Under the pieces are notes generated by a model. That model saw nothing but the letters and a program-made list of their open reading frames with translations. It did not search any database and was not told the origin of the DNA. 41,334 nucleotides of DNA. Origin: Bacteroidales bacterium. GTDB lineage: Bacteria > Bacteroidota > Bacteroidia > Bacteroidales > F082. Each line of letters begins with the position of its first letter. The stretch's first letter is position 1. The position numbers and the translations under genes were made by a program. The DNA is taken from positions 1-41,334 of the forward strand of contig JAGCFU010000046.1 in NCBI GenBank assembly GCA_017649945.1, written 5' to 3'. Positions 4,093-20,445 of this stretch are shown piece by piece.

Positions 4093-4127
4093 AATAGAGA
4101 CGTTTCTTGAAACGTCTCTATTTTTTT
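4093..4127 (+). terminator. Rho-independent terminator of the alpha ribosomal operon
   Basis: A perfect 13-bp stem, AATAGAGACGTTT (4093-4105) with AAACGTCTCTATT (4110-4122), loop CTTG, followed by a run of seven T (4121-4127). It lies 25 bases after the rplQ stop. Confidence 0.92.
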
Positions 4128-4207
4128 ATTCTCCGTGTATAAAATTTTATTTTGGGTGTACAAAATTTTACTTTAAATGTAAATCGTTTTATTCTCCGTG
4201 TATTTTT
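4124..4207. repeat. Four 21-bp direct repeats, exact helical phasing, upstream of the mini-protein operon
   Basis: Units start at 4124, 4145, 4166 and 4187. The first and last share a 17-base exact match, TTTTATTCTCCGTGTAT (4124-4140 and 4187-4203). The second matches the first at 22 of 26 aligned bases, and the third is decayed but keeps TTTTA and ATGTA. The 21-bp period is two turns of B-DNA, so all units face the same side of the helix. The array ends 33 bases before the -7 element at 4241. This is the geometry of a tandem binding site for a direct-repeat-reading regulator such as a LytTR protein (inference). With the terminator, promoter and leader hairpin, it accounts for the otherwise gene-free stretch 4069-4397. 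Confidence 0.7.
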
Positions 4208-11360: not shown

Positions 11361-12647
11361 TTAAATAACTTCCGCTACCGTGAAATTGCTTCCGCCAATG
11401 AAAACTACATCGTCGAAATGGGCATTGTTGAGCGCTGAATTGTATGCCTGCTGCACCGATTCATATACTTTTCCGCGTAATCCGGCCTCTAAAGCTTTGT
11501 CAGCCAAGATGTTGGCATCTAATCCGCGTGGTATGTCGGCCTTGCAGAAATAGTAGTCGGCATAATGTGGCAGCAGATGCAAAATACCGTCTATATCTTT
11601 GTCGTTCACACAACCTAAAACGAAGTGTAACTTCCTGAACGTCATGTCACTAAGCTGCATCACAATCTCTTTTATTCCGCCAACGTTGTGTCCTGTGTCG
11701 GCTATCACCAACGGTTGACGGCTCAAGATTTGCCATCTGCCCATCAGATTGGTGTTTTTCACTACAAACTCAAGGCCGTTGATGACGTCTTTCTTTTCGA
11801 TATTGAACTTTGCTTTGAGTTGTTCGACGGCGCAAATCACTGTGGCAAGGTTTTTCTTCTGATAATATCCGAGAAGTGGGAACTCCACTGCCTCAATGTA
11901 TAACTCATTGTCTTTCCAGATGTCAAACTTTTGATAATCAAGAGATTCGATGTGTATTTTGTCGCAATCTACAATCTGGTCGGCGAAGAAAATCGGAGCT
12001 TTGCATTCCTGAGCTTTCTTGATGAAAACGTCTTTAGTCTCCGGTTGTGTCTCGCCAATAACCACTGGAGTGTTTGGCTTGATGATGCCTGCTTTTTCAA
12101 CCGCAATTTCTGCTAATGTGTTACCGAGCATATTCACGTGATCCAATGAAATGTTAGTGATTATGCTTAGTTCCGGATTTATCACATTGGTTGAGTCCAA
12201 ACGTCCGCCGAGTCCCACCTCGATGATGGCGATGTCGACTTTCTCTTTCGCGAAATAATCGAATGCCATGCCTGTCGCCATCTCGAAGAACGATAGTTGC
12301 ATCTCCTCGAACTTCTCTTTATTGTCGCCGATGAAGTCGATGACGTTCTGTTCAGGTATCATCTTACCGTTGATGCGTATTCTCTCGCGGAAATCGAGCA
12401 GGTGAGGGGATGTGTACAAGCCTGTTTTGTATCCGCATTCCTGGAAAATGGATGCCAACGTGTGCGACACTGTTCCTTTGCCGTTGGTTCCGGCCACATG
12501 CACTGTCTTGAAGCTGTTTTGCGGATTGCCAAGAAAATCAAGCAATTCTTTGATGTTGCCAAGGTCTGGCTTATATGCCGACGCACCTATCTTCTGGTAC
12601 ATCGGGAACTTGTTGAACATCCAATTTGTGGTCTCTGCGTAGTTCAT
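11361..12647 (-). CDS. folC: Dihydrofolate synthase / folylpolyglutamate synthase
   Basis: A 428-residue Mur-ligase-family enzyme that adds glutamate to dihydropteroate and folates. ATP-binding VAGTNGKGTV at 51-60, then SPHLLDFRERIRINGK, the metal/substrate block IIEVGLGGRLDSTN, ITNISLDHVNMLGNT and VIADTGHNVGG. Length is normal. The start overlaps the tonB stop by four bases (ATGA), indicating translational coupling within the exbB-exbD-tonB-folC-tamL operon; there is no evident functional link between folate synthesis and its neighbours. Confidence 0.95.
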   Translation of the reverse strand: MNYAETTNWMFNKFPMYQKIGASAYKPDLGNIKELLDFLGNPQNSFKTVHVAGTNGKGTVSHTLASIFQECGYKTGLYTSPHLLDFRERIRINGKMIPEQNVIDFIGDNKEKFEEMQLSFFEMATGMAFDYFAKEKVDIAIIEVGLGGRLDSTNVINPELSIITNISLDHVNMLGNTLAEIAVEKAGIIKPNTPVVIGETQPETKDVFIKKAQECKAPIFFADQIVDCDKIHIESLDYQKFDIWKDNELYIEAVEFPLLGYYQKKNLATVICAVEQLKAKFNIEKKDVINGLEFVVKNTNLMGRWQILSRQPLVIADTGHNVGGIKEIVMQLSDMTFRKLHFVLGCVNDKDIDGILHLLPHYADYYFCKADIPRGLDANILADKALEAGLRGKVYESVQQAYNSALNNAHFDDVVFIGGSNFTVAEVI

Positions 12648-13363
12648 TTTAAGACAAATTTATATGTTATCGTGCCTTTTTGTAGTTCGGCGGCGTTTTT
12701 ATCTGATGCGAATACTGAGTTTCTTGCTGCGTTTAAAGCGGTCTCACGCATTTTGGCATTTGCGATGTTAGTGCCTTTGCCTATCTGTGTCCTTTGCACA
12801 CGTCCGTCGCGGTCAACCCAGATGTCAACTACGATGGTGCCTTCTTCATTGAAGTCGGAACTTGGTCTTGAGAGGCTTTTATGTCCTCTGCCTCCAAGGT
12901 CATATGATGGCCCGCCGCCGCTGCCGCCTTGTCCCGTGTAACTCTGGGCGTCCCTGGTACCATTCGGGTTACCTTGATCACCGGGTGTTTCAGTGTTGCC
13001 TTCTGATGAGGGCTGTTCAGGTGTCTTCACTGGCTTGAACAAGGCTCTCTCGTTGACTTTCTGTTCTTTTTTCTTAGGTTTCGGCTCCTCCAAAGCTGGT
13101 GCTTCTTCAGTATTTTGGGTCACTGTCTCTTCTTTGGGCTGTTCCTGCTTCGGTTTCGGAGCCTCTGCCACCTTTGTTGGCTTTGGCTGCTGTTGCGTGC
13201 CCATGCCTTGGTTGTACATTCCGAGGTTAACCTCAACTCCTGCTTCTCCTGGCAACGGCAATGGCGTAGTGAGTGCCAAAATGAACAAAATCACTACTAC
13301 AACAGCGTGAACCGCCACGGTAGCACCTATCGCAATGGCCCTATTTCTGTTCTGCCGTGTCAT
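12644..13363 (-). CDS. tonB: TonB-like energy transducer
   Basis: 239 residues. One N-terminal membrane helix (about 9-31) contains His19, the conserved transmembrane His of TonB. A Pro/Lys/Glu-rich periplasm-spanning linker follows (about 55-130), then a Gly-rich patch (YTGQGGSGGG), then a TonB/TolA-like C-terminal fold (about 170-239: GTIVVDIWVDRDGRVQ to GTITYKFVLK). It follows exbD with a four-base overlap, so the three make one motor. Whether it serves TonB-dependent receptors or a Tol-like envelope role cannot be told from sequence; a TolA-like reading is possible given tamL downstream. Confidence 0.85.
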   Translation of the reverse strand: MTRQNRNRAIAIGATVAVHAVVVVILFILALTTPLPLPGEAGVEVNLGMYNQGMGTQQQPKPTKVAEAPKPKQEQPKEETVTQNTEEAPALEEPKPKKKEQKVNERALFKPVKTPEQPSSEGNTETPGDQGNPNGTRDAQSYTGQGGSGGGPSYDLGGRGHKSLSRPSSDFNEEGTIVVDIWVDRDGRVQRTQIGKGTNIANAKMRETALNAARNSVFASDKNAAELQKGTITYKFVLK

Positions 13364-13773
13364 TTCTTCGCTGATGTTGCAAGTAAAACCTTGTGGTTCT
13401 GATGTGTCTCGTTGTTGATATTGTTCACAGCGTCAATCACGTTGACGATATACTGCACAGGTACCGTCTTGTCGGAACGTACTACCACAGTGCCGTCTAT
13501 GGTGTTGCCGAGTGCAAGTAATATTTCCGGTTGTAACTGAGTGTCGGCGACTTTGCGTTCCCCGACGAAATAATCCATCTTGTCGTTGATGTATACTGTG
13601 ACGGTCTGCTTTGCCATGGTGCGGCTGCTGCTCTGCGGAAGTAACAGTTTTATCGCATTCGGCGCCACTAATGTCGACGTCAGCATGAAGAATATAAGCA
13701 AAAGGAACACGAGGTCGGACATCGACGACGAGTTGAACTCCACTCTTCTCTGGTTTCTGCGTTTCAGTGCCAT
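13360..13773 (-). CDS. exbD: ExbD/TolR family biopolymer transport protein
   Basis: 137 residues. A single membrane helix (about 19-36, SDLVFLLLIFFMLTSTLV) carries the conserved proton-handling Asp20, with a short basic N-terminus and a periplasmic ExbD/TolR domain (VTVYINDKMDYFVG, VVRSDKTVPVQYIVNVIDAV). It partners ExbB in the proton-driven motor. It lies 1 base after exbB and overlaps tonB by four bases. Confidence 0.93.
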   Translation of the reverse strand: MALKRRNQRRVEFNSSSMSDLVFLLLIFFMLTSTLVAPNAIKLLLPQSSSRTMAKQTVTVYINDKMDYFVGERKVADTQLQPEILLALGNTIDGTVVVRSDKTVPVQYIVNVIDAVNNINNETHQNHKVLLATSAKK

Positions 13774-13774
13774 A

Positions 13775-14461
13775 TTACTTTGCAGGTTCGTTCAAAACAT
13801 CCATGAATTCAATACTCTTCGATTCGAGAAGATTCACAACCTTGTCAATCTGTGAAACAAGGATGTTGTAGAAAATAAAGGCGATGATACCCACGATGAG
13901 GCCGCCGACGGTTGTCACCATGGCCTGATAGATACCTGTAGAGAGAAGCTCTATATCGATATTGTTGCCTGCCATCGACATGTCGTAGAATGCACGAATC
14001 ATTCCGATGACGGTGCCGAGGAAGCCCAACATCGGGCCGGCTCCGGAAATCATGGCGAGGAGCGCCACACCTTTCTCAAGGTTGCTGACTTCCAGGTTTC
14101 CGACGTTTTCAATGGCTGTCTGAATGTCATTCAAAGGCTTGCCGATGCGCGAGATGCCTTTCTCAATCATTCGTGAAAGTGGGGTGGAGGTGCGCTGGCA
14201 CAACACCTTGGCATCATTGAGCTTGCCGTCTTTCATGTAATTGCGTATAGTTTCCATAAACATATCGTCTTTTTTCGCTGCCCGATTGATGTTTATGAAT
14301 CGCTCAATAAAGATGTAAAACGCGATAATGGAGAAAATCGCTAAAATCAACATGATCCATCCGCCGTGAACGGCCATGTCCCATAAAGACATTCTGATTT
14401 CTGTGGCTTCTGTAACTTGTTCTGCCACAGGGATTTGCAATAAAAAATTCGTTAAATTCAT
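13775..14461 (-). CDS. exbB: ExbB/TolQ/MotA family proton channel
   Basis: 228 residues from the ATG at 14461, which I prefer to an in-frame ATG at 14494 because a -7 element lies at 14482-14489. Three membrane segments: about 28-52 (WIMLILAIFSIIAFYIFIERF), about 125-150 (ALLAMISGAGPMLGFLGTVIGMI) and about 175-200 (MVTTVGGLIVGIIAFIFYNILV). The block GPMLGFLGTVIGMI is the TolQ/ExbB core motif. It forms the inner-membrane channel with ExbD and powers TonB. It is the first gene of the minus-strand operon. Confidence 0.92.
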   Translation of the reverse strand: MNLTNFLLQIPVAEQVTEATEIRMSLWDMAVHGGWIMLILAIFSIIAFYIFIERFININRAAKKDDMFMETIRNYMKDGKLNDAKVLCQRTSTPLSRMIEKGISRIGKPLNDIQTAIENVGNLEVSNLEKGVALLAMISGAGPMLGFLGTVIGMIRAFYDMSMAGNNIDIELLSTGIYQAMVTTVGGLIVGIIAFIFYNILVSQIDKVVNLLESKSIEFMDVLNEPAK

Positions 14462-14481
14462 ATACTTGTATTTGTCATTTA

Positions 14482-14489
14482 CAAAAATA
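14482..14489 (-). promoter_or_regulatory. Candidate -7 element (TATTTTTG on the minus strand) for exbB
   Basis: Exact TAnnTTTG match about 20 bases before the exbB ATG at 14461. A second match (TATATTTG, 14503-14510) lies slightly upstream. Neither has a TTG at exactly 19-21 bases, so the choice is uncertain. Confidence 0.4.
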
Positions 14490-14510
14490 AACAATTAAAC
14501 GACAAATATA

Positions 14511-15401
14511 TTATATTTCTGCGAATCTTTTTACAATTTTTTCACTATAAGTTTTAGAAATCGGCACCGATTCAAGTTCTTTCTTGTCGAAATCGATGTA
14601 GTAATAGTCGGATTCAGTGCGTAACACCTTGATATTGTTGGTGTTAACTATGTATGTCCTGTGGCATCGCATGAGAGGTGTGCCTTTGAAAGCGTCTTCA
14701 ATGGCCTGAATTTTGTTGCGGAGCACAAAAGAACTGATACCTTCTTTATTATTATAGAACACCTCGACGTAGTTGCCTTCCGCCTTGATGTAGTATATAT
14801 TCTCAAGTTTTACAGCGAATTTCTGAGCTCCGGTGTAGTCGTTGAAGTTGATGATGTCAGGATTTTCGGTGACGAGAGGTGCGCTGGTGGTGTTTTTCGT
14901 GTTATTGTTCGCAATGTTAGATTTTATCACTCGTTTGGCGATATTCAGGATTCGGCGTGTATCAATGAGAGCGAAACTTAAGTCAGTGACAATGAACGGG
15001 AATCCTAAGGCTATCAGTGAAATCAAGATACTTTTTCCAATGATTAATGCTTGTGTGTAACCTTGTATCTGCATGATTCTCAATGAGATATATGCATGGA
15101 AAAGTCCGATGAGCACAATCTCCGCAACATTCCATAATATATATTTGGGGAAGGTGAACCGTATCAGTCTTTTTGAAGTGTAATACATCATCACCCTGCT
15201 GAAAATCAGGAATATAGTGGAGAAGATGATGAAGAATGAGGTGTATATGAACTTGCTTTCATCTTCCACTGAGAACCATGTGGTGTTTGAAAACGGGTAA
15301 TATATGGCCAAAAACGCGATAGCGAAGAGCGCCGAGATGGTTACCTGCACCACCAAGTTGTTCTTTTCTATCAGGTAATGTGGCAATTTTTTTCTTGTCA
15401 T
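14511..15401 (-). CDS. Membrane-bound LytTR-family transcription regulator
   Basis: 296 residues from the ATG at 15401; an upstream in-frame ATG (15470) is rejected because the promoter at 15420-15427 lies between the two. Four predicted membrane helices fill about residues 12-155 (for example LFAIAFLAIYYPF, FFIIFSTIFLIFSRVM, ILWNVAEIVLIGLF, SILISLIALGFPFIV). A linker leads to a C-terminal LytTR DNA-binding domain (about 200-296: IYYIKAEGNYVEVFY, MRCHRTYIVN, VPISKTYSEKI). No receiver domain is present, so the signal is probably sensed in the membrane. It is divergent from fabH across seven phased repeats, which are its most likely binding sites; LytTR proteins are known to read pairs of ~9-bp direct repeats about two turns apart. 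Confidence 0.88.
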   Translation of the reverse strand: MTRKKLPHYLIEKNNLVVQVTISALFAIAFLAIYYPFSNTTWFSVEDESKFIYTSFFIIFSTIFLIFSRVMMYYTSKRLIRFTFPKYILWNVAEIVLIGLFHAYISLRIMQIQGYTQALIIGKSILISLIALGFPFIVTDLSFALIDTRRILNIAKRVIKSNIANNNTKNTTSAPLVTENPDIINFNDYTGAQKFAVKLENIYYIKAEGNYVEVFYNNKEGISSFVLRNKIQAIEDAFKGTPLMRCHRTYIVNTNNIKVLRTESDYYYIDFDKKELESVPISKTYSEKIVKRFAEI

Positions 15402-15419: not shown

Positions 15420-15427
15420 CAAAGATA
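15420..15427 (-). promoter_or_regulatory. Bacteroidota -7 element (TATCTTTG, minus strand) for the LytTR gene
   Basis: CAAAGATA on the plus strand. It lies 18 bases before the ATG at 15401, so the leader is short, and 27 bases from the nearest TTTCGTCAC unit. Confidence 0.6.
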
Positions 15428-15450: not shown

Positions 15451-15594
15451 TTTTCGTCACAAAATTTCACAATTTCGTCACAAAAAATTGAAATTCGTCA
15501 CAAAAGCCCCTGATTTCGTCACAAATAGTCGAATTTCGTCACAAAATTCAAAATTTCGTCACAAATGGGCTGAATTTCGTCACAAAAATTCATC
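15451..15594. repeat. Seven helically phased TTTCGTCACAAA repeats between the LytTR gene and fabH
   Basis: Units start at 15451, 15472, 15492, 15513, 15533, 15553 and 15574 (steps 21, 20, 21, 20, 20, 21). All seven keep TTCGTCACAAA; the 8-10 bases between cores are unrelated. The mean step of 20.5 bp equals two DNA turns, so all cores lie on one face. The array is centred between two divergent promoters: 27 bases separate the LytTR -7 element from the first CGTCAC and 28 bases separate the last CGTCAC from the fabH -7 element. It reads as an extended operator, not a CRISPR. Confidence 0.9.
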
Positions 15595-15611: not shown

Positions 15612-15619
15612 TATTTTTG
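15612..15619 (+). promoter_or_regulatory. Bacteroidota -7 element (TATTTTTG) for the fabH operon
   Basis: Exact TAnnTTTG match 44 bases before the fabH ATG. No TTG at -33; the closest TTTCGTCAC core ends 28 bases upstream, a position suited to an activator. Confidence 0.6.
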
Positions 15620-15663: not shown

Positions 15664-16611
15664 ATGAAGATTTCAGGAACAGGAAGTTCTCTTCCGTCAA
15701 AAGTTGTTACAAACCAGATGCTTGCTGAGATTCTTGACACATCTGACGAATGGATTACAACGCGTACCGGTATCAAGGAGCGCCGTGTCCTTTCTAAGGA
15801 ATATGTGTTAGACCTCGCTGTCGATGCGTCGTTGAAGGCTTTGGCTGACGCTAAGATGGATGTTAAGGACATCAACTTCATCATTTGCGCCAACGTCGTG
15901 AATGAATATGTGACACCTGCTTTGAGCTGCATCGTGAAAGATAAGATCGGAGCACATTGTCCATGTGTTGACCTCAATGGGGCGTGCGTGGGTTTCATTT
16001 ATGCCTGCGACATCGCGGAAGCATATTATAAAATAGGTAAAGTGAAAAACGTCCTCGTGGTATGCGCCGAGGCCCCTGCCCATATGCTCGACTGGCATGA
16101 CCGTACATGTGCCGTGCTGTTCGGAGCGGGAGCGGGAGCGGCAGTGCTCACACCGGGTGACAACATCATCGCCACACGTCTCACCGGTTCGGAAGGCTGG
16201 GACCGTCTCTATGAGATGCACGATCTCCAGTGGTGCCCTTACGATGAGAAAGGCAGCACCAATCTCCCTCTCGTGATGCATGGTCAGGATGTGTTCAAAT
16301 TCGCCACATCAACATGCGTCAGCGACTTGAAGGCAGTGCTTAAAGATGCTAACGTCAGTGCTGATGAGATTAACACTTATTTCATCCATCAGGCTAACTT
16401 GAGAATTATTAAATACATTGAACAGATGCTGAGACAGCCTACCGAGAAGTTCCCGACCAACATCGAGAAATACGGTAACACATCGTCGGCCAGCCTACCT
16501 ATCCTTCTTGACGAAGTGAAACGCGCTGGCGGCCTCAAGGAAGGCGACATGCTCGCTTTCAGCGCCTTCGGCGCCGGCCTCGTATCAGGTGCAATGATTA
16601 TGAAATGGTAA
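15664..16611 (+). CDS. fabH: Beta-ketoacyl-ACP synthase III (KAS III / FabH-like)
   Basis: 315 residues. FabH condenses an acyl-CoA primer with malonyl-ACP to start fatty acid synthesis. The catalytic triad is in place: Cys108 (NGACVGFIYA), His242 (FIHQAN) and Asn272 (YGNTSSAS). N-terminal GTGSSLPSKVVTN and DEWITTRTGIKERR are family blocks. Length is standard. It is the first gene of an eight-gene operon, just downstream of the phased array. The primer (acetyl-, branched or other) cannot be told from sequence. Confidence 0.95.
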   Translation: MKISGTGSSLPSKVVTNQMLAEILDTSDEWITTRTGIKERRVLSKEYVLDLAVDASLKALADAKMDVKDINFIICANVVNEYVTPALSCIVKDKIGAHCPCVDLNGACVGFIYACDIAEAYYKIGKVKNVLVVCAEAPAHMLDWHDRTCAVLFGAGAGAAVLTPGDNIIATRLTGSEGWDRLYEMHDLQWCPYDEKGSTNLPLVMHGQDVFKFATSTCVSDLKAVLKDANVSADEINTYFIHQANLRIIKYIEQMLRQPTEKFPTNIEKYGNTSSASLPILLDEVKRAGGLKEGDMLAFSAFGAGLVSGAMIMKW

Positions 16612-16622
16612 AATTGAAAACT

Positions 16623-17867
16623 ATGGAAACAAATAAAAGAAGAGTTGTAATTACAGGAATGGGAGTTGTATCTCCTGTTGGAAACGATGTCGAAACATTC
16701 CTCGACAGCATCATGACTGGAAAATGCGGCATCGGCATGATTACTAAGTTTAACACCGACGACCTCCCTGTGAAGGTTGCAGCAGAAATCAAGGATTTTG
16801 ATCCTGCTAAGGACGGATTGGATACTCCTTTCGTGCGCCGTAACGACCTTTTCGCTGTATACGCCATGGCAGCTGCATGCCAGGCTATGAAAGGCAATGA
16901 GGATGGCTGGGATGCTGACCGTCTCGGCGTGTATATCGGCTCAGGCATCGGCGGCTTCGACACCATGATGCGTGAGATGCATAAACTCGAGGCAGAAGGT
17001 CCACGCTGGGTCTCTCCTCTGATGATACCTACCATGATAGCAAACATGGCGGCAGGTAATGTGGCTATCCGTTTCAACGCCCACGGAGTGTGTCTGCCAG
17101 TAGTGACAGCATGCGCAACGAGCACTCATGCTATCGGCGAGGCTTATCGCGCTATCAAAGACGGCTACGCTGACGGCATCATCGCAGGCGGTACAGAAGC
17201 TCCTATCAACCGTCTCTCAATCGCTGGCTTCGCTAACTGCAAGGCGTTGACAAAGTCAGAAGACCCGAATGCAGCATCATTGCCATTCGACGCCCGCCGT
17301 GCAGGATTCGTCATCGCAGAAGGCGCAGGTATCGTTCTTTTGGAAGAATACGAACATGCTAAACAACGCGGAGCTAAGATATACGCTGAGGTATGCGGCT
17401 ACGGCAACACTTGCGACGGACATCACGTCACAGCACCACATCCGGAAGGCACATACGCAGCTAAAGCTATCAAGATAGCATTGGATGAGGCCGGTTATCA
17501 GGAAAAGAAAGACCTCCTTTACATTAATGCACACGGCACCGGCACAGCGTTGAACGACTCGTCAGAGACCATGGCTATCAAGAAGGCTATGGGTGAGGAC
17601 GAGGCACGCAGAGCCCTGATTAGCTCAACAAAATCAATGACAGGACACCTTCTCGGTGCAGCAGGAGCTATCGAAATCATCGCTTCAGCATTGGCATTGC
17701 AGAAAGGTATGGTGCCTCCGACAATCAACCTTAACGAGGCTGACCCGGTATGTGACCTCAACTACACACCGAATAAGGCTGTCAAAGCTGACCTTACAAT
17801 AGCAGTATCACAGTCACTTGGCTTCGGCGGACATAATGGCGCCGTGGCTTTGAGACCGATTAAATAA
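16623..17867 (+). CDS. fabF: Beta-ketoacyl-ACP synthase II (KAS II / FabF-like)
   Basis: 414 residues from the ATG at 16623 (METNKRRVVITGMGVVSPVG); an ATG at 16605 would overlap fabH and add a non-conserved hexapeptide. It elongates acyl-ACP with malonyl-ACP. Catalytic Cys164 (TACATSTHAIGEAYRAI), His304 (INAHGTGTALND) and His342 (GHLLGAAGAIE) match the Cys-His-His set of KAS I/II. It follows fabH by 11 bases and precedes fabZ by 21. Confidence 0.95.
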   Translation: METNKRRVVITGMGVVSPVGNDVETFLDSIMTGKCGIGMITKFNTDDLPVKVAAEIKDFDPAKDGLDTPFVRRNDLFAVYAMAAACQAMKGNEDGWDADRLGVYIGSGIGGFDTMMREMHKLEAEGPRWVSPLMIPTMIANMAAGNVAIRFNAHGVCLPVVTACATSTHAIGEAYRAIKDGYADGIIAGGTEAPINRLSIAGFANCKALTKSEDPNAASLPFDARRAGFVIAEGAGIVLLEEYEHAKQRGAKIYAEVCGYGNTCDGHHVTAPHPEGTYAAKAIKIALDEAGYQEKKDLLYINAHGTGTALNDSSETMAIKKAMGEDEARRALISSTKSMTGHLLGAAGAIEIIASALALQKGMVPPTINLNEADPVCDLNYTPNKAVKADLTIAVSQSLGFGGHNGAVALRPIK

Positions 17868-17888: not shown

Positions 17889-18314
17889 ATGACAAAAGAA
17901 GAATTAAAAAACTACTTGCCTCACCGCGAGCCTATGTTGCTCGTTGACGAGATTGATATTGATGAGCAGCATGTCGCTCACTCGAAATATCACGTCAAGG
18001 GTGATGAGTTCTTCCTCCAGGGACACTTCCCGGGCAACCCTGTGGTGCCGGGCGTCATCCTCTGCGAGATTATGGCCCAGTCGTGCGCTCTCCTTATGAA
18101 GGAAGACCTTCCGGGCAAACTGACTTTCTACACAGGCATCAACAACGTGCGTTTCAAGAACCAGGTTCTTCCGGGTGACACCGTGGAAGTGGACGCTGTC
18201 TTGACAGCACACCGCGCCAATATCTATTTCTGCGATGCTAAATTAAGCGTCAGAGGAAAACAGTGCGTCAGCGGAAGCCTGTCGTTTGCTCTCGTTCCAA
18301 GAACAGAAAAATAA
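17889..18314 (+). CDS. fabZ: 3-hydroxyacyl-ACP dehydratase (FabZ-like)
   Basis: A 141-residue single hot-dog domain. It dehydrates 3-hydroxyacyl-ACP to trans-2-enoyl-ACP. The active-site block is QGHFPGNPVVPGVILCEIMAQ, with catalytic His46 and Glu60. MTKEELKNYLPHREPMLLVD is the usual FabZ opening. Its stop is 12 bases before the etfB start. Confidence 0.94.
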   Translation: MTKEELKNYLPHREPMLLVDEIDIDEQHVAHSKYHVKGDEFFLQGHFPGNPVVPGVILCEIMAQSCALLMKEDLPGKLTFYTGINNVRFKNQVLPGDTVEVDAVLTAHRANIYFCDAKLSVRGKQCVSGSLSFALVPRTEK

Positions 18315-18326
18315 AATTTGAATATA

Positions 18327-19151
18327 ATGCAGAAGAAAGATTTTCAAATCGTTGTGTTGGCAAAACAGGTGCCTGATACCAAGAACGTTGGTAAGGACGC
18401 TATGAATGCCGACGGCACTATCAACCGTGCGGCTCTTCCTGCCATCTTCAACCCTGATGACATGAAGGCTCTCGAGATGGCTCTGATGTGCCGTGATAGA
18501 ATTAAAGCAGAAAACAACATCGATGTCAAGGTCACTGTCATCACGATGGGACCTCCACGCGCCAACGAGATTATCCGTGAGGCATTGTACCGTGGTGCAG
18601 ACGATGGTTTCGTGGTCAGCGACAAACGTTTTGCAGGCTCCGACACCTTGGCTACATCATACGCTTTGTCGATGGCAATCAAGAAGTTGGGTCATTATGA
18701 CATCGTCTTTACAGGACGTCAGGCTATCGATGGCGACACCGCACAGGTGGGACCGCAGACAGCAGAGAAACTTGACGTGCCACAGATCACTTACGCCGAT
18801 GAGATTATCATCGCGACACCTGAGAAGATCCGTCTCAAGAGAGTGCTCCAGCATGGTATCGAGATCGTCGAGACAAAACTCCCGGCTCTCGTCACAGTAC
18901 ACGGCAACGCACATGAATGCCGCTCACGCCACGCACATCTCGTGATTAAGAAGAAAAACACTGAAATCCCTATGCTGACAGCCGACGACCTCAACCCTGA
19001 CTTTGAGAGATTAGGTCTTAAAGGCTCTCCGACAAAGGTGAAAAACATCGAGAACGTCGTTCTCGCAAAGAAAGAAAGCATAGCAGTAAGTAGCGATGAC
19101 GAAGGTATCAAAGGATTGGTTGAAGACCTCACCGCAGCTCACATTTTCTAA
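18327..19151 (+). CDS. etfB: Electron transfer flavoprotein beta subunit
   Basis: 274 residues from the ATG at 18327 (MQKKDFQIVVLAKQVPDTKN); an in-frame TTG at 18318 is a weaker choice. EtfB binds nucleotide or flavin and, with EtfA, passes electrons between acyl-CoA dehydrogenases and other carriers. Family blocks: DMKALEMAL, TMGPPRANEIIREALYRGADD, GRQAIDGDTAQVGPQTAE. It lies between fabZ and acpP, and its partner etfA follows acpP. Bifurcating and non-bifurcating types were not separated here. Confidence 0.94.
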   Translation: MQKKDFQIVVLAKQVPDTKNVGKDAMNADGTINRAALPAIFNPDDMKALEMALMCRDRIKAENNIDVKVTVITMGPPRANEIIREALYRGADDGFVVSDKRFAGSDTLATSYALSMAIKKLGHYDIVFTGRQAIDGDTAQVGPQTAEKLDVPQITYADEIIIATPEKIRLKRVLQHGIEIVETKLPALVTVHGNAHECRSRHAHLVIKKKNTEIPMLTADDLNPDFERLGLKGSPTKVKNIENVVLAKKESIAVSSDDEGIKGLVEDLTAAHIF

Positions 19152-19213: not shown

Positions 19214-19450
19214 ATGACAACAAAAGAAAAAATCACTGAAATCATCGTTAACAAGTTGAATTGCGATCCTTCACAGGTTACAGAAGACGCAGCATTTGTC
19301 ACCACATTAGGTGCTGATTCATTGGATATCGTTGAGCTTATCATGGACATCGAGCGTGAGTTCGAGATCACTATTCCGGATACCATGACAGAGAAGATCG
19401 TCACAGTGGGCGATGCAATCAAAGTTGTTGAAGAAATCAAGGCAAAATAA
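19214..19450 (+). CDS. acpP: Acyl carrier protein
   Basis: 78 residues, acidic, four-helix ACP. Ser36 in LGADSLDIVEL is the 4'-phosphopantetheine attachment site. Helix II continues as IMDIEREFEITIPD. The last base of its stop is the first base of the etfA ATG (TAATG), so ACP and ETF are translationally coupled, an unusual partnership. Whether it is the housekeeping ACP or one dedicated to this operon cannot be told. Confidence 0.95.
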   Translation: MTTKEKITEIIVNKLNCDPSQVTEDAAFVTTLGADSLDIVELIMDIEREFEITIPDTMTEKIVTVGDAIKVVEEIKAK

Positions 19451-20445
19451 TGAATAACATTATTGTTTATTGTGAAGTAAAAGACGACGGCAAGATCGCC
19501 GATGTGAGCTTGGAGCTCTGTTCCAAGGCCCGTCATCTGGCCGACCGACTCAACGTGAATGTTGAGGCCGCTGTCATTGGCAACAATCTCAAAGGTCTTG
19601 AGAATGAGTTGTTTACACATGGTGTGAACACAGTGTTCTGCCTTGAAGATTCGCGTCTGTCGTTCTATCAGACGCTGCCTCATTTCAGTGTGATGACAAA
19701 ACTCATCGAGCGTGAAAAACCGTATTCAGTGCTTTTCGGAGCAACTCCTGTCGGTCGTGACCTCGGTCCGAGAGTGGCGTCATATCTCCGTTGCGGTCTC
19801 ACAGCAGACTGTACAGCCCTCGACATCGACGAGAACGGCAACCTGATGCAGATCCGTCCGGCTTTCGGCGGTAACATCATCGCAACCATCATCTGCCCGG
19901 ACGTCCGTCCACAGATGGCTACAGTGCGTGAAGGCGTTATGAAACAGGAAGTGTTTGAGAAACAGAAGAATACATCTGTCGTGAAACTCAACGCCGCTGA
20001 GTTCTTGAAGCCAGAGGATTTCATCGTGAACATCATCGAGCGTAAGCTTGAGGAGAAGAAAATCGACATCAAAGGTGCTCCAATCATCGTTTCAGGCGGT
20101 TACGGCATGGGTTCTAAGGAGAACTTCAAGCTGTTGCATGAACTTGCTAACCTTCTCGGAGGCGAGGTCGGTGCCACACGTGCCGCTGTCGACGCCGGAT
20201 TCGCAGAGCCGGAACGTCAGGTCGGCCAGACAGGCGTCACAGTGCGTCCAAAGGTGTACATCGCATGCGGTATCTCCGGCGCTGTCCAGCACCGCTCGGG
20301 CATGGAACAGTCAGCGTTGATAATCTCTATCAACACCGACCCGCACGCCCCGATCAACTCTATCGCAGACTACGTCATCACAGGTGATGCCGCAGATGTT
20401 GTGCCGAAGATGATAAAATATTGTAAATCAAATAGTAAGAAATAA
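19450..20445 (+). CDS. etfA: Electron transfer flavoprotein alpha subunit
   Basis: 331 residues. The C-terminal FAD domain (about 205-325) shows IVSGGYGMGSKENFKLLHEL, VGATRAAVDAGFAE, RQVGQTGVTVRPKVYIACG, ISGAVQHRSGM and NTDPHAPINSIADYVITGD, all standard for FAD binding. Forms a heterodimer with EtfB. It overlaps acpP by one base upstream and the dehydrogenase gene by one base downstream (TAATG at both junctions). Confidence 0.95.
   Translation: MNNIIVYCEVKDDGKIADVSLELCSKARHLADRLNVNVEAAVIGNNLKGLENELFTHGVNTVFCLEDSRLSFYQTLPHFSVMTKLIEREKPYSVLFGATPVGRDLGPRVASYLRCGLTADCTALDIDENGNLMQIRPAFGGNIIATIICPDVRPQMATVREGVMKQEVFEKQKNTSVVKLNAAEFLKPEDFIVNIIERKLEEKKIDIKGAPIIVSGGYGMGSKENFKLLHELANLLGGEVGATRAAVDAGFAEPERQVGQTGVTVRPKVYIACGISGAVQHRSGMEQSALIISINTDPHAPINSIADYVITGDAADVVPKMIKYCKSNSKK

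Follow-up and report, generated by a model that had tools for sequence, protein, structure and literature searches.

A seven-unit candidate LytTR operator in fixed register with a fatty-acid synthesis promoter in uncultured Bacteroidales

The window analyzed here is the whole stretch of 41,334 nucleotides, in which a gene for a LytTR protein (lytTR) stands divergent from a group of fatty-acid synthesis genes. The lytTR gene lies on the minus strand (14511..15401), and its translation gives a protein of 296 aa, the proposed regulator, with a LytTR domain in Pfam (PF04397, E 1.7e-15). On the plus strand, fabH (15664..16611; 3-oxoacyl-ACP synthase III; PF08541, PF08545) is the proposed main target and presumably the first gene of an operon that continues with a fabF-type ketoacyl synthase (16605..17867; PF00109, PF02801), a FabA/FabZ-like dehydratase (17889..18314; PF07977), one subunit of an electron transfer flavoprotein (18318..19151; PF01012), and an alpha-type subunit of the same kind of protein (19450..20445; PF01012, PF00766). 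An earlier note, made from the letters of this DNA alone, had placed a LytTR gene beside fab-etf genes, and Pfam confirmed LytTR, fabH, the fabF-type and fabA/fabZ-type genes, and both etf genes. After lytTR, on the minus strand, come ExbB, ExbD, and a TonB-like gene (12644–14494; Pfam). Elsewhere in the window, a degenerate 21-bp tandem repeat (TTTTATTCTCCGTGTATAAAA, 3.8 copies) is found between reading frames at 4124–4203.

Between lytTR and fabH, an exact search found a 12-bp word in seven plus-strand copies (15452–15586), six of them TTTCGTCACAAA and one ATTCGTCACAAA, and TRF also picked up this array. Counted from the lytTR-proximal end, units 1 (15452..15463) and 2 (15473..15484) are TTTCGTCACAAA, unit 3 (15493..15504) is ATTCGTCACAAA, and units 4 (15514..15525), 5 (15534..15545), 6 (15554..15565), and 7 (15575..15586), the last being proximal to fabH, are again TTTCGTCACAAA. 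The steps from unit to unit are 21, 20, 21, 20, 20, and 21 bp (mean 20.5), and the claim of seven near-identical cores at steps of 20–21 bp was thus recovered in full. A putative -7 element of the fabH promoter, TATTTTTG, was read from the sequence at 15612..15619 (plus strand); the core of unit 7, TTCGTCAC, ends 28 nt upstream of it, and that of unit 6 ends 49 nt upstream. The putative -7 element of the lytTR promoter is located at 15420..15427 (minus strand), where it reads TATCTTTG (CAAAGATA on the plus strand). Gaps of 27 and 28 bases to the two -7 elements had been proposed; measured from the 8-bp core TTCGTCAC, the value of 28 on the fabH side stands, whereas the lytTR side gives 25 rather than 27. 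In the genome to which the window belongs (1.975 Mb, 84% complete), a two-core pattern matched this array only, as six overlapping pairs, and the backwards control of the pattern had zero matches across the same genome. Three more single cores were found there, each within a reading frame.

The array precedes fatty-acid synthesis genes across a group of uncultured bacteria from rumen and gut, and it was compared over 16 orthologous loci of the genus, here called clade A, whose LytTR proteins are 71%–100% identical. Seven units were detected in 15 of the 16 loci (6-of-8 rule), with a span of 123 bp in 14 loci and 124 bp in L250; L238 has five chained units and a degenerate end unit. Steps ranged from 19 to 22 bp (mean 20.51 over 94 steps), and four loci keep the span by pairing a step of 22 with a subsequent step of 19; L250 has a 22-bp step without a compensating short one. 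Mean column conservation was 0.955 in the cores versus 0.644 in the inner spacers, and because the spacers have diverged while the cores are conserved, the array is not a recent simple tandem repeat. All gaps reported here are counted between the end of the 8-bp core and the -7 element, for which we took the last match to T[AT]NNTTTG before the gene, a rule that is blind to phase. From the fabH-nearest unit to the fabH -7 element, the gap is 28 nt in all 16 loci. Toward lytTR, it is 24–25 nt in 13 of the 16, the exceptions being L240 (14 nt, which is ten bases, or about one turn, shorter), L238 (66 nt), and L248 (2 nt; another -7 match was chosen by the rule).

Hydropathy of the LytTR protein gave about four hydrophobic stretches within residues 13–148, and Pfam at E 0.001 found the LytTR domain alone, with no MHYT. 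An AlphaFold model built on a six-row alignment was unusable (mean pLDDT 38), and a sequence search of solved structures returned a weak LytTR match, 3d6w, and an unrelated methyltransferase. A lytTR homologue at 1e-20 is present in 75 of 80 genomes of the genus; a class-level search for close homologues at 1e-25 found them in 0 of 148 genomes besides the one studied here. In the lytTR tree, clades A, B, and C and L028 are joined at 98/88, L029 at 91/35, and L290, a long branch without a ladder of such units, at 99/93. L038 and L039, which are sister to the fabH-linked group, follow at 93/96 and have no ladder, even though L039 has a divergent ligase gene. A second LytTR gene of the same genome (L266; G000:C73:15864-16715) is 28% identical and has no array; the gene upstream of it looks TonB-like.

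The exact word proved of little use outside the genus, since in a sample of the order its two-core pattern matched 8 of 198 genomes versus 4 for the backwards control. In a sample of the family, it matched 30 of 149 genomes, all within the genus (control 0), and several of these pairs, lying in long reading frames at 18-bp steps, resemble coding repeats. Among the matches listed for an exact three-unit pattern (129 arrays of at least three units, L056–L203), 87, whose spacers are near-identical, have the look of simple or coding repeats. The word TTTCGTCACAAA is one local form of a broader motif, which reads about TTYRYCMC in the direction of the target gene (GKGRYRAA reversed). In other families of the order, related membrane LytTR genes (24%–35% identical) often have two to four upstream repeats at 20-bp steps, which read T..GGGGTGAAA toward lytTR. 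Intermediates such as GTGGCGAA occur beside fabH in clade B (LytTR 44%–48% identical), L028, and L029, and single arrays before ligase genes combine TTTCGTCAC, TTTCGTCCC, TTTCACCCC, TTTCGCCCC, and TTTATCCCA forms; it is these intermediates and mixed arrays that point to a unit of about TTYRYCMC.

Independently of any motif, a near-identical repeat at lag 20 was present in 18 of 48 lytTR loci of other families, versus 1.8 in shuffles, the highest count at any lag over 40 shuffles being 6. Chains, defined as at least two motif units at 19–22 bp in the lytTR sense, stand upstream of lytTR in all 16 loci of clade A, in seven of nine of clade B, and in 22 of the 48 of other families (0.24 expected), where the motif had been written after reading 28 of the 48 loci and chains were found in 18 of those 28 and in 4 of the 20 fetched later. 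On the opposite strand, none of the 48 had a chain. The 13 most distant of these homologues (L292, L293, L295–L305) showed no ladder, and in the 14 loci of clade C that were read the lytTR gene has no array of its own. There, it sits after a gene that we take to be recX.

To which genes the ladder belongs was counted at the gene starts of 106 loci of the genus (L238–L285, L308–L365), from which short or duplicate upstream sequences were dropped. A ladder pointing toward the gene was found at 36 of 38 fabH, 14 of 30 ligase, and six of six GDSL genes, with the reservation that loci discovered through their arrays supplied the ligase and GDSL queries, so that the counts for these two include discovery cases. 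None of 156 other gene starts in these loci had a ladder toward it, in line with the expectation that arrays would be absent from random genes. A ladder pointing away from the gene was found at 21 of 50 lytTR genes and at seven of the 156 others, and all seven of the latter lie across a target's array. The ligases are, from our reading of their sequences, presumably acyl-CoA ligases; in clade A genomes, ligase genes have no ladder. The GDSL acylhydrolase carries one in seven of eight genus loci, the eighth (L344) having only 58 nt upstream, and also in L012 and L013 of another family (L012 is PF13472). In clade C, fabH lies 3–7 kb from lytTR on the same contig and has two or three strict units in 15 of 15 loci. 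In clades A and B, as well as in L028 and L029, which represent two further families, lytTR is divergent from fabH; in other families, it most often has a DUF6051 alpha/beta hydrolase gene as its divergent partner (17 of 48 by sequence signature, plus L294), one example of which was checked by Pfam (PF19519, 5.5e-117).

Clade A genomes also have extra two-unit sites at genes without a plain lipid role, as we read the gene names, and many of these sites fall inside a repeated composite element. This element, of ~85 bp and dispersed in clade A genomes (L207–L210, L212–L214, L216, L218, L220, L223, and others), has direct repeats like TATCTTTTGGTCGAA and GTATCTAAAGGTCGAA, within which two cores stand 20 bp apart. 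It recurs intergenically beside genes that we take to be rsmI, a gene for an outer-membrane protein, asd, ribF, and tsaB. Longer sites are three exact cores directly 5' of a recombinase-like gene (L215:732-781, G281) and five cores between a gene for an AraC-type-looking regulator and a large reading frame (L221:4071-4162, G263).

The distances to the -7 element recur from one target to another. At clade A fabH, units end 28, 49, 69, 89, 110, 130, and 151 nt upstream of it. At clade C fabH, the values are 48–49, 68–69, and 90–91 in 13 of 15 loci, the rule having chosen a later match in L351 and L352, and at clade B fabH they are 70 and usually 90, plus an off-register unit at 18 (L349 also has 29 and 50). 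In nine clade C loci, the ligase genes show 49, 70, 91, 112, and 133 or values close to these, and the clade B locus L321 has 28, 49, 69, and 89; L320 and L324–L326 deviate from the register. The GDSL genes have units at 48–49, 68–70, and 90–91, some with extra units at 77–78, 109–110, and 141–143, and those of another family have them at 68 and 88. For the DUF6051 and fabH genes of other families, a -7 match was found in 16 of 19 regions, and 34 of 35 gaps are at most 2 nt from 30, 49, 69, or 89, the lone outlier being 122 in L047; L034 was omitted from this comparison for its misplaced start, and the duplicate L388 gave 69 and 49 from the last -7 candidate. A Rayleigh figure for the register carries no weight here, as the distances behind it were hand-picked and omit the off-register units. 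On the lytTR side, the gap differs by clade, being 24–25 nt in A, 8 nt in B, and 6 nt in L028, and in C lytTR lies apart from the array. An equal aim at both promoters, as the earlier note had it, does not agree with a register rigid at fabH (28 nt) and variable at lytTR; equal control of the two was therefore rejected as the main function, and control of the regulator's own gene became less certain.

Whether or not lytTR was nearby, DUF6051 genes were searched for in 295 genomes; 55 had matches, and the best 30 of the 55 loci were examined. All nine with a LytTR gene in the ~1.5-kb flanks had a ladder (three duplicate earlier loci; new loci alone, six of six), versus 0 of the 20 readable loci without lytTR in the flanks; L374, with no upstream sequence, was excluded, and gene starts are uncertain in L366, L369, L373, L377, and L384. 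Fisher's test gave p 1e-7 for this association (4e-6 for the new loci only), values that are rough because loci of the same family are not independent. Five of the six new loci have units 89–90 and 69–70 nt from the last -7 candidate, and the sixth has no match; in three of the five, an earlier candidate would yield 61 and 41. Among 29 fabH-like loci of other genera and families, adjacency went the same way, with a ladder in both loci that have a four-transmembrane (4TM) LytTR gene, each known before, and in 0 of 26 without LytTR. L409, which has fabH and a LytTR gene and no ladder, was considered as a counter-case and set aside, its LytTR gene being of the response-regulator type.

LytTR operators with two or three repeats, spaced by about two turns, are described in the available parts of two papers (PMC6193735, PMC11347149), so the general kind of operator is not new, and the claim that it was undescribed had to be narrowed accordingly. 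It holds for the seven-unit, fixed-register form: no description of such a ladder, or of its register at lipid genes, was found among the matches listed from the open-licence PMC literature, and a literature search with the motif letters gave no relevant description among the matches listed. By its sequence features, the array is a candidate operator in the class of LytTR direct repeats, set apart by how many units it has and by its recurrent association with genes for lipid enzymes.

A close likeness in the accessible text of PMC11347149 is CoxC, a membrane-anchored LytTR protein with direct repeats two turns apart (18–21 bp) at its target promoter. CoxC is a repressor of an alphaproteobacterium with a seven-transmembrane MHYT sensor for CO, and its operator at the cox genes has three units of motif TTNNNGCN overlapping the -35 element (PMC11347149), whereas here up to seven units lie upstream of the promoter, the protein has about four hydrophobic stretches, and the genes are lipid genes. 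RcoM, as described in the same portion of PMC11347149, is likewise a LytTR protein with three direct repeats (motif TTCNNGCA) and spacers of 12–13 bp, its heme sensing CO. In LRS, as far as described in the accessible text of PMC6193735, LytTR autoregulation proceeds via direct repeats just upstream of a promoter, as may be the case here, but LRS proper pairs a soluble regulator with a membrane inhibitor that is a distinct protein, while here the hydrophobic stretches and the LytTR domain are in one 296-aa protein and the next genes are ExbB, ExbD, and TonB-like. The repeats of LRS are narrowly spaced upstream of the regulator's own promoter (PMC6193735); here, they are upstream of lytTR with a spacing to the -7 element that differs between clades. 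The LRS-like regulators of Bacteroides are comparable, with several transmembrane segments and with repeats that come ahead of a TATCTTTG element; according to the same text, their operons have two 11-bp repeats of the TCCGGTATTCA type, proposed from sequence, and include a membrane protein with NfeD-like and DUF2154 domains (PMC6193735). HigX of Caulobacter has four predicted transmembrane helices ahead of a LytTR domain, to which the roughly four hydrophobic stretches and the LytTR domain found here may correspond, and it has envelope-linked targets, but its motif in the available part of PMC13384398 is an 8-bp imperfect inverted repeat with no direct-repeat ladder, and the word lipid does not appear in the main text of that paper. 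The neighborhood of DUF6051, LytTR, and ligase genes has already been described (PMC11878206), in the available portion without an operator, a register, or a link to fabH.

Taken as computed, the array is conserved in its cores, keeps its register, accompanies lytTR, and stands before a limited set of target genes. It is, on these grounds, a real, conserved, and promoter-locked candidate operator, and it is likely to be a multicopy operator of the membrane LytTR protein, where cooperative binding would activate the fabH-fabF-fabZ-etf operon and have a lesser, more variable effect on lytTR itself. We infer that LytTR binds the array, that it acts as an activator, and that it answers to a signal. 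One LytTR domain would occupy each 8-bp unit (TTYRYCMC, here TTCGTCAC), and as the units are two helical turns apart, the bound proteins would be stacked on one face of the DNA. Upon a membrane or lipid signal, the regulator would bind the ladder cooperatively and the operon would be activated. Judging by the Bacteroidetes promoter layout, the two units nearest to fabH are presumably at about -42 and -63, which would be the places used by class II and class I activators, respectively. Comparison with relatives suggests that the ladder sites serve for docking of a membrane-anchored regulator, which probably controls several lipid enzymes, with relatives using the same ladder at other lipid enzyme genes; in clade B, the unit 8 nt from the lytTR -7 element would fit negative feedback. 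What endures of the original proposal is a LytTR operator directed at lipid genes, for which the ladders at 22 of 48 lytTR genes in other families, the DUF6051 ladders found only beside lytTR (best 30 of 55 loci), and the 36 of 38 fabH genes all argue. The idea that arrays always lie near a LytTR gene had to be given up, as no lytTR adjoins the arrays at clade C fabH, ligase, and GDSL genes; with a homologue in 75 of 80 genomes of the genus, LytTR could act from a distance.

That the units keep a set distance ahead of the promoter favors activation. CoxC, a membrane LytTR protein, represses at three repeats overlapping the -35 element according to the available text (PMC11347149), so the same LytTR operator might serve a repressor instead, blocking RNA polymerase at fabH, lytTR, or both until released by a signal. 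The units nearest to lytTR in clade B and L028, 8 and 6 nt from the -7 element, are in a repressor-like place, and clade B fabH has its unit at 18 nt. Against this, the nearest strict unit is 28 or at least 48 nt from the -7 element at clade A and C fabH and at most ligase, GDSL, and DUF6051 genes, the units stop upstream of the expected -33 element, the rigid register suits contact with polymerase, and most LytTR-type regulators are stated in that same text to bind upstream of -35 and activate (PMC11347149); we consider repression rather unlikely. Reading of the ladder by another, unlinked transcription factor, with lytTR as a regulated neighbor, is less probable still. It would account for arrays at genes without an adjoining lytTR and for two incomplete genomes, G341 (72% complete) and G330 (85%), that have ladders at GDSL or ligase genes and no lytTR match at 1e-20; in G302, with a two-unit GDSL ladder, the sole lytTR relative is a 27%-identical paralogue. 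It does not account for the DUF6051 ladders, which track an adjacent lytTR (nine of nine versus 0 of 20, best 30 of 55 loci), or for the fabH-like loci of other genera and families, with ladders in two of two beside a 4TM-LytTR gene, in 0 of 26 without LytTR, and none in L409; two-turn direct repeats are, moreover, what the accessible texts report for LytTR sites (PMC6193735, PMC11347149).

A repeat with no regulatory role, such as a replication iteron cluster, a mobile repeat, or an unstable minisatellite, might be suspected from the two-core element dispersed at several places in clade A genomes and from the 87 arrays with near-identical spacers among the 129 of at least three units (L056–L203, among the matches listed). 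Over the 16 loci, however, the spacers have diverged while the cores, the total span, and the distance to the fabH -7 element were kept, and the same register recurs at unrelated genes, which leaves such an origin extremely improbable; readings of the array as a tandem repeat, iterons, or a coding repeat were set aside on the strength of spacer divergence and register.

Building on the membrane-LytTR operator as the preferred reading, a bolder and doubtful extension may be offered. Up to seven membrane-tethered LytTR proteins in a row on one face of the promoter might bring the fatty-acid operon to the inner membrane and read the state of the membrane, the number of units acting as a rheostat, within a Bacteroidales lipid regulon that would use one register (28 + about 20.4 n nt upstream of the -7 element) at fabH, acyl-CoA ligase, GDSL, and DUF6051 genes. 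Among the matches listed from the open-licence PMC literature, no regulator of fatty-acid synthesis was described for this group. A membrane-tied regulator whose operator is recognizable in the sequence and has a fixed promoter register would make its targets predictable, the number of units open to variation, and its signal open to search, and it opens to testing the way in which transcription factors bound to the membrane read DNA sites repeated in a row. The set of targets (fabH, acyl-CoA ligase, and lipase-like hydrolases) hints at a single controller balancing lipid synthesis and turnover.

Some other arrays came to light in these searches. In Bhargavaea, L066, L099, L110, and L117 have TTCGTCACTTTC arrays with 21-bp steps, diverged spacers, and no LytTR within 8 kb, which are probably a separate phenomenon. 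Prevotella and Bacteroides arrays (L063, L165, L068, L096, and L103) have TTCGTCACA cores, some of them after CCG, and those of L063 and L165 adjoin other LytTR genes; the core, to our eye, resembles the AlgR box. In another family, two GTGACGAAA units (L014:1501-1529, G183) precede a LytS-type-looking kinase gene that is followed by a response-regulator gene, and a LytTR match lies just downstream of the two.
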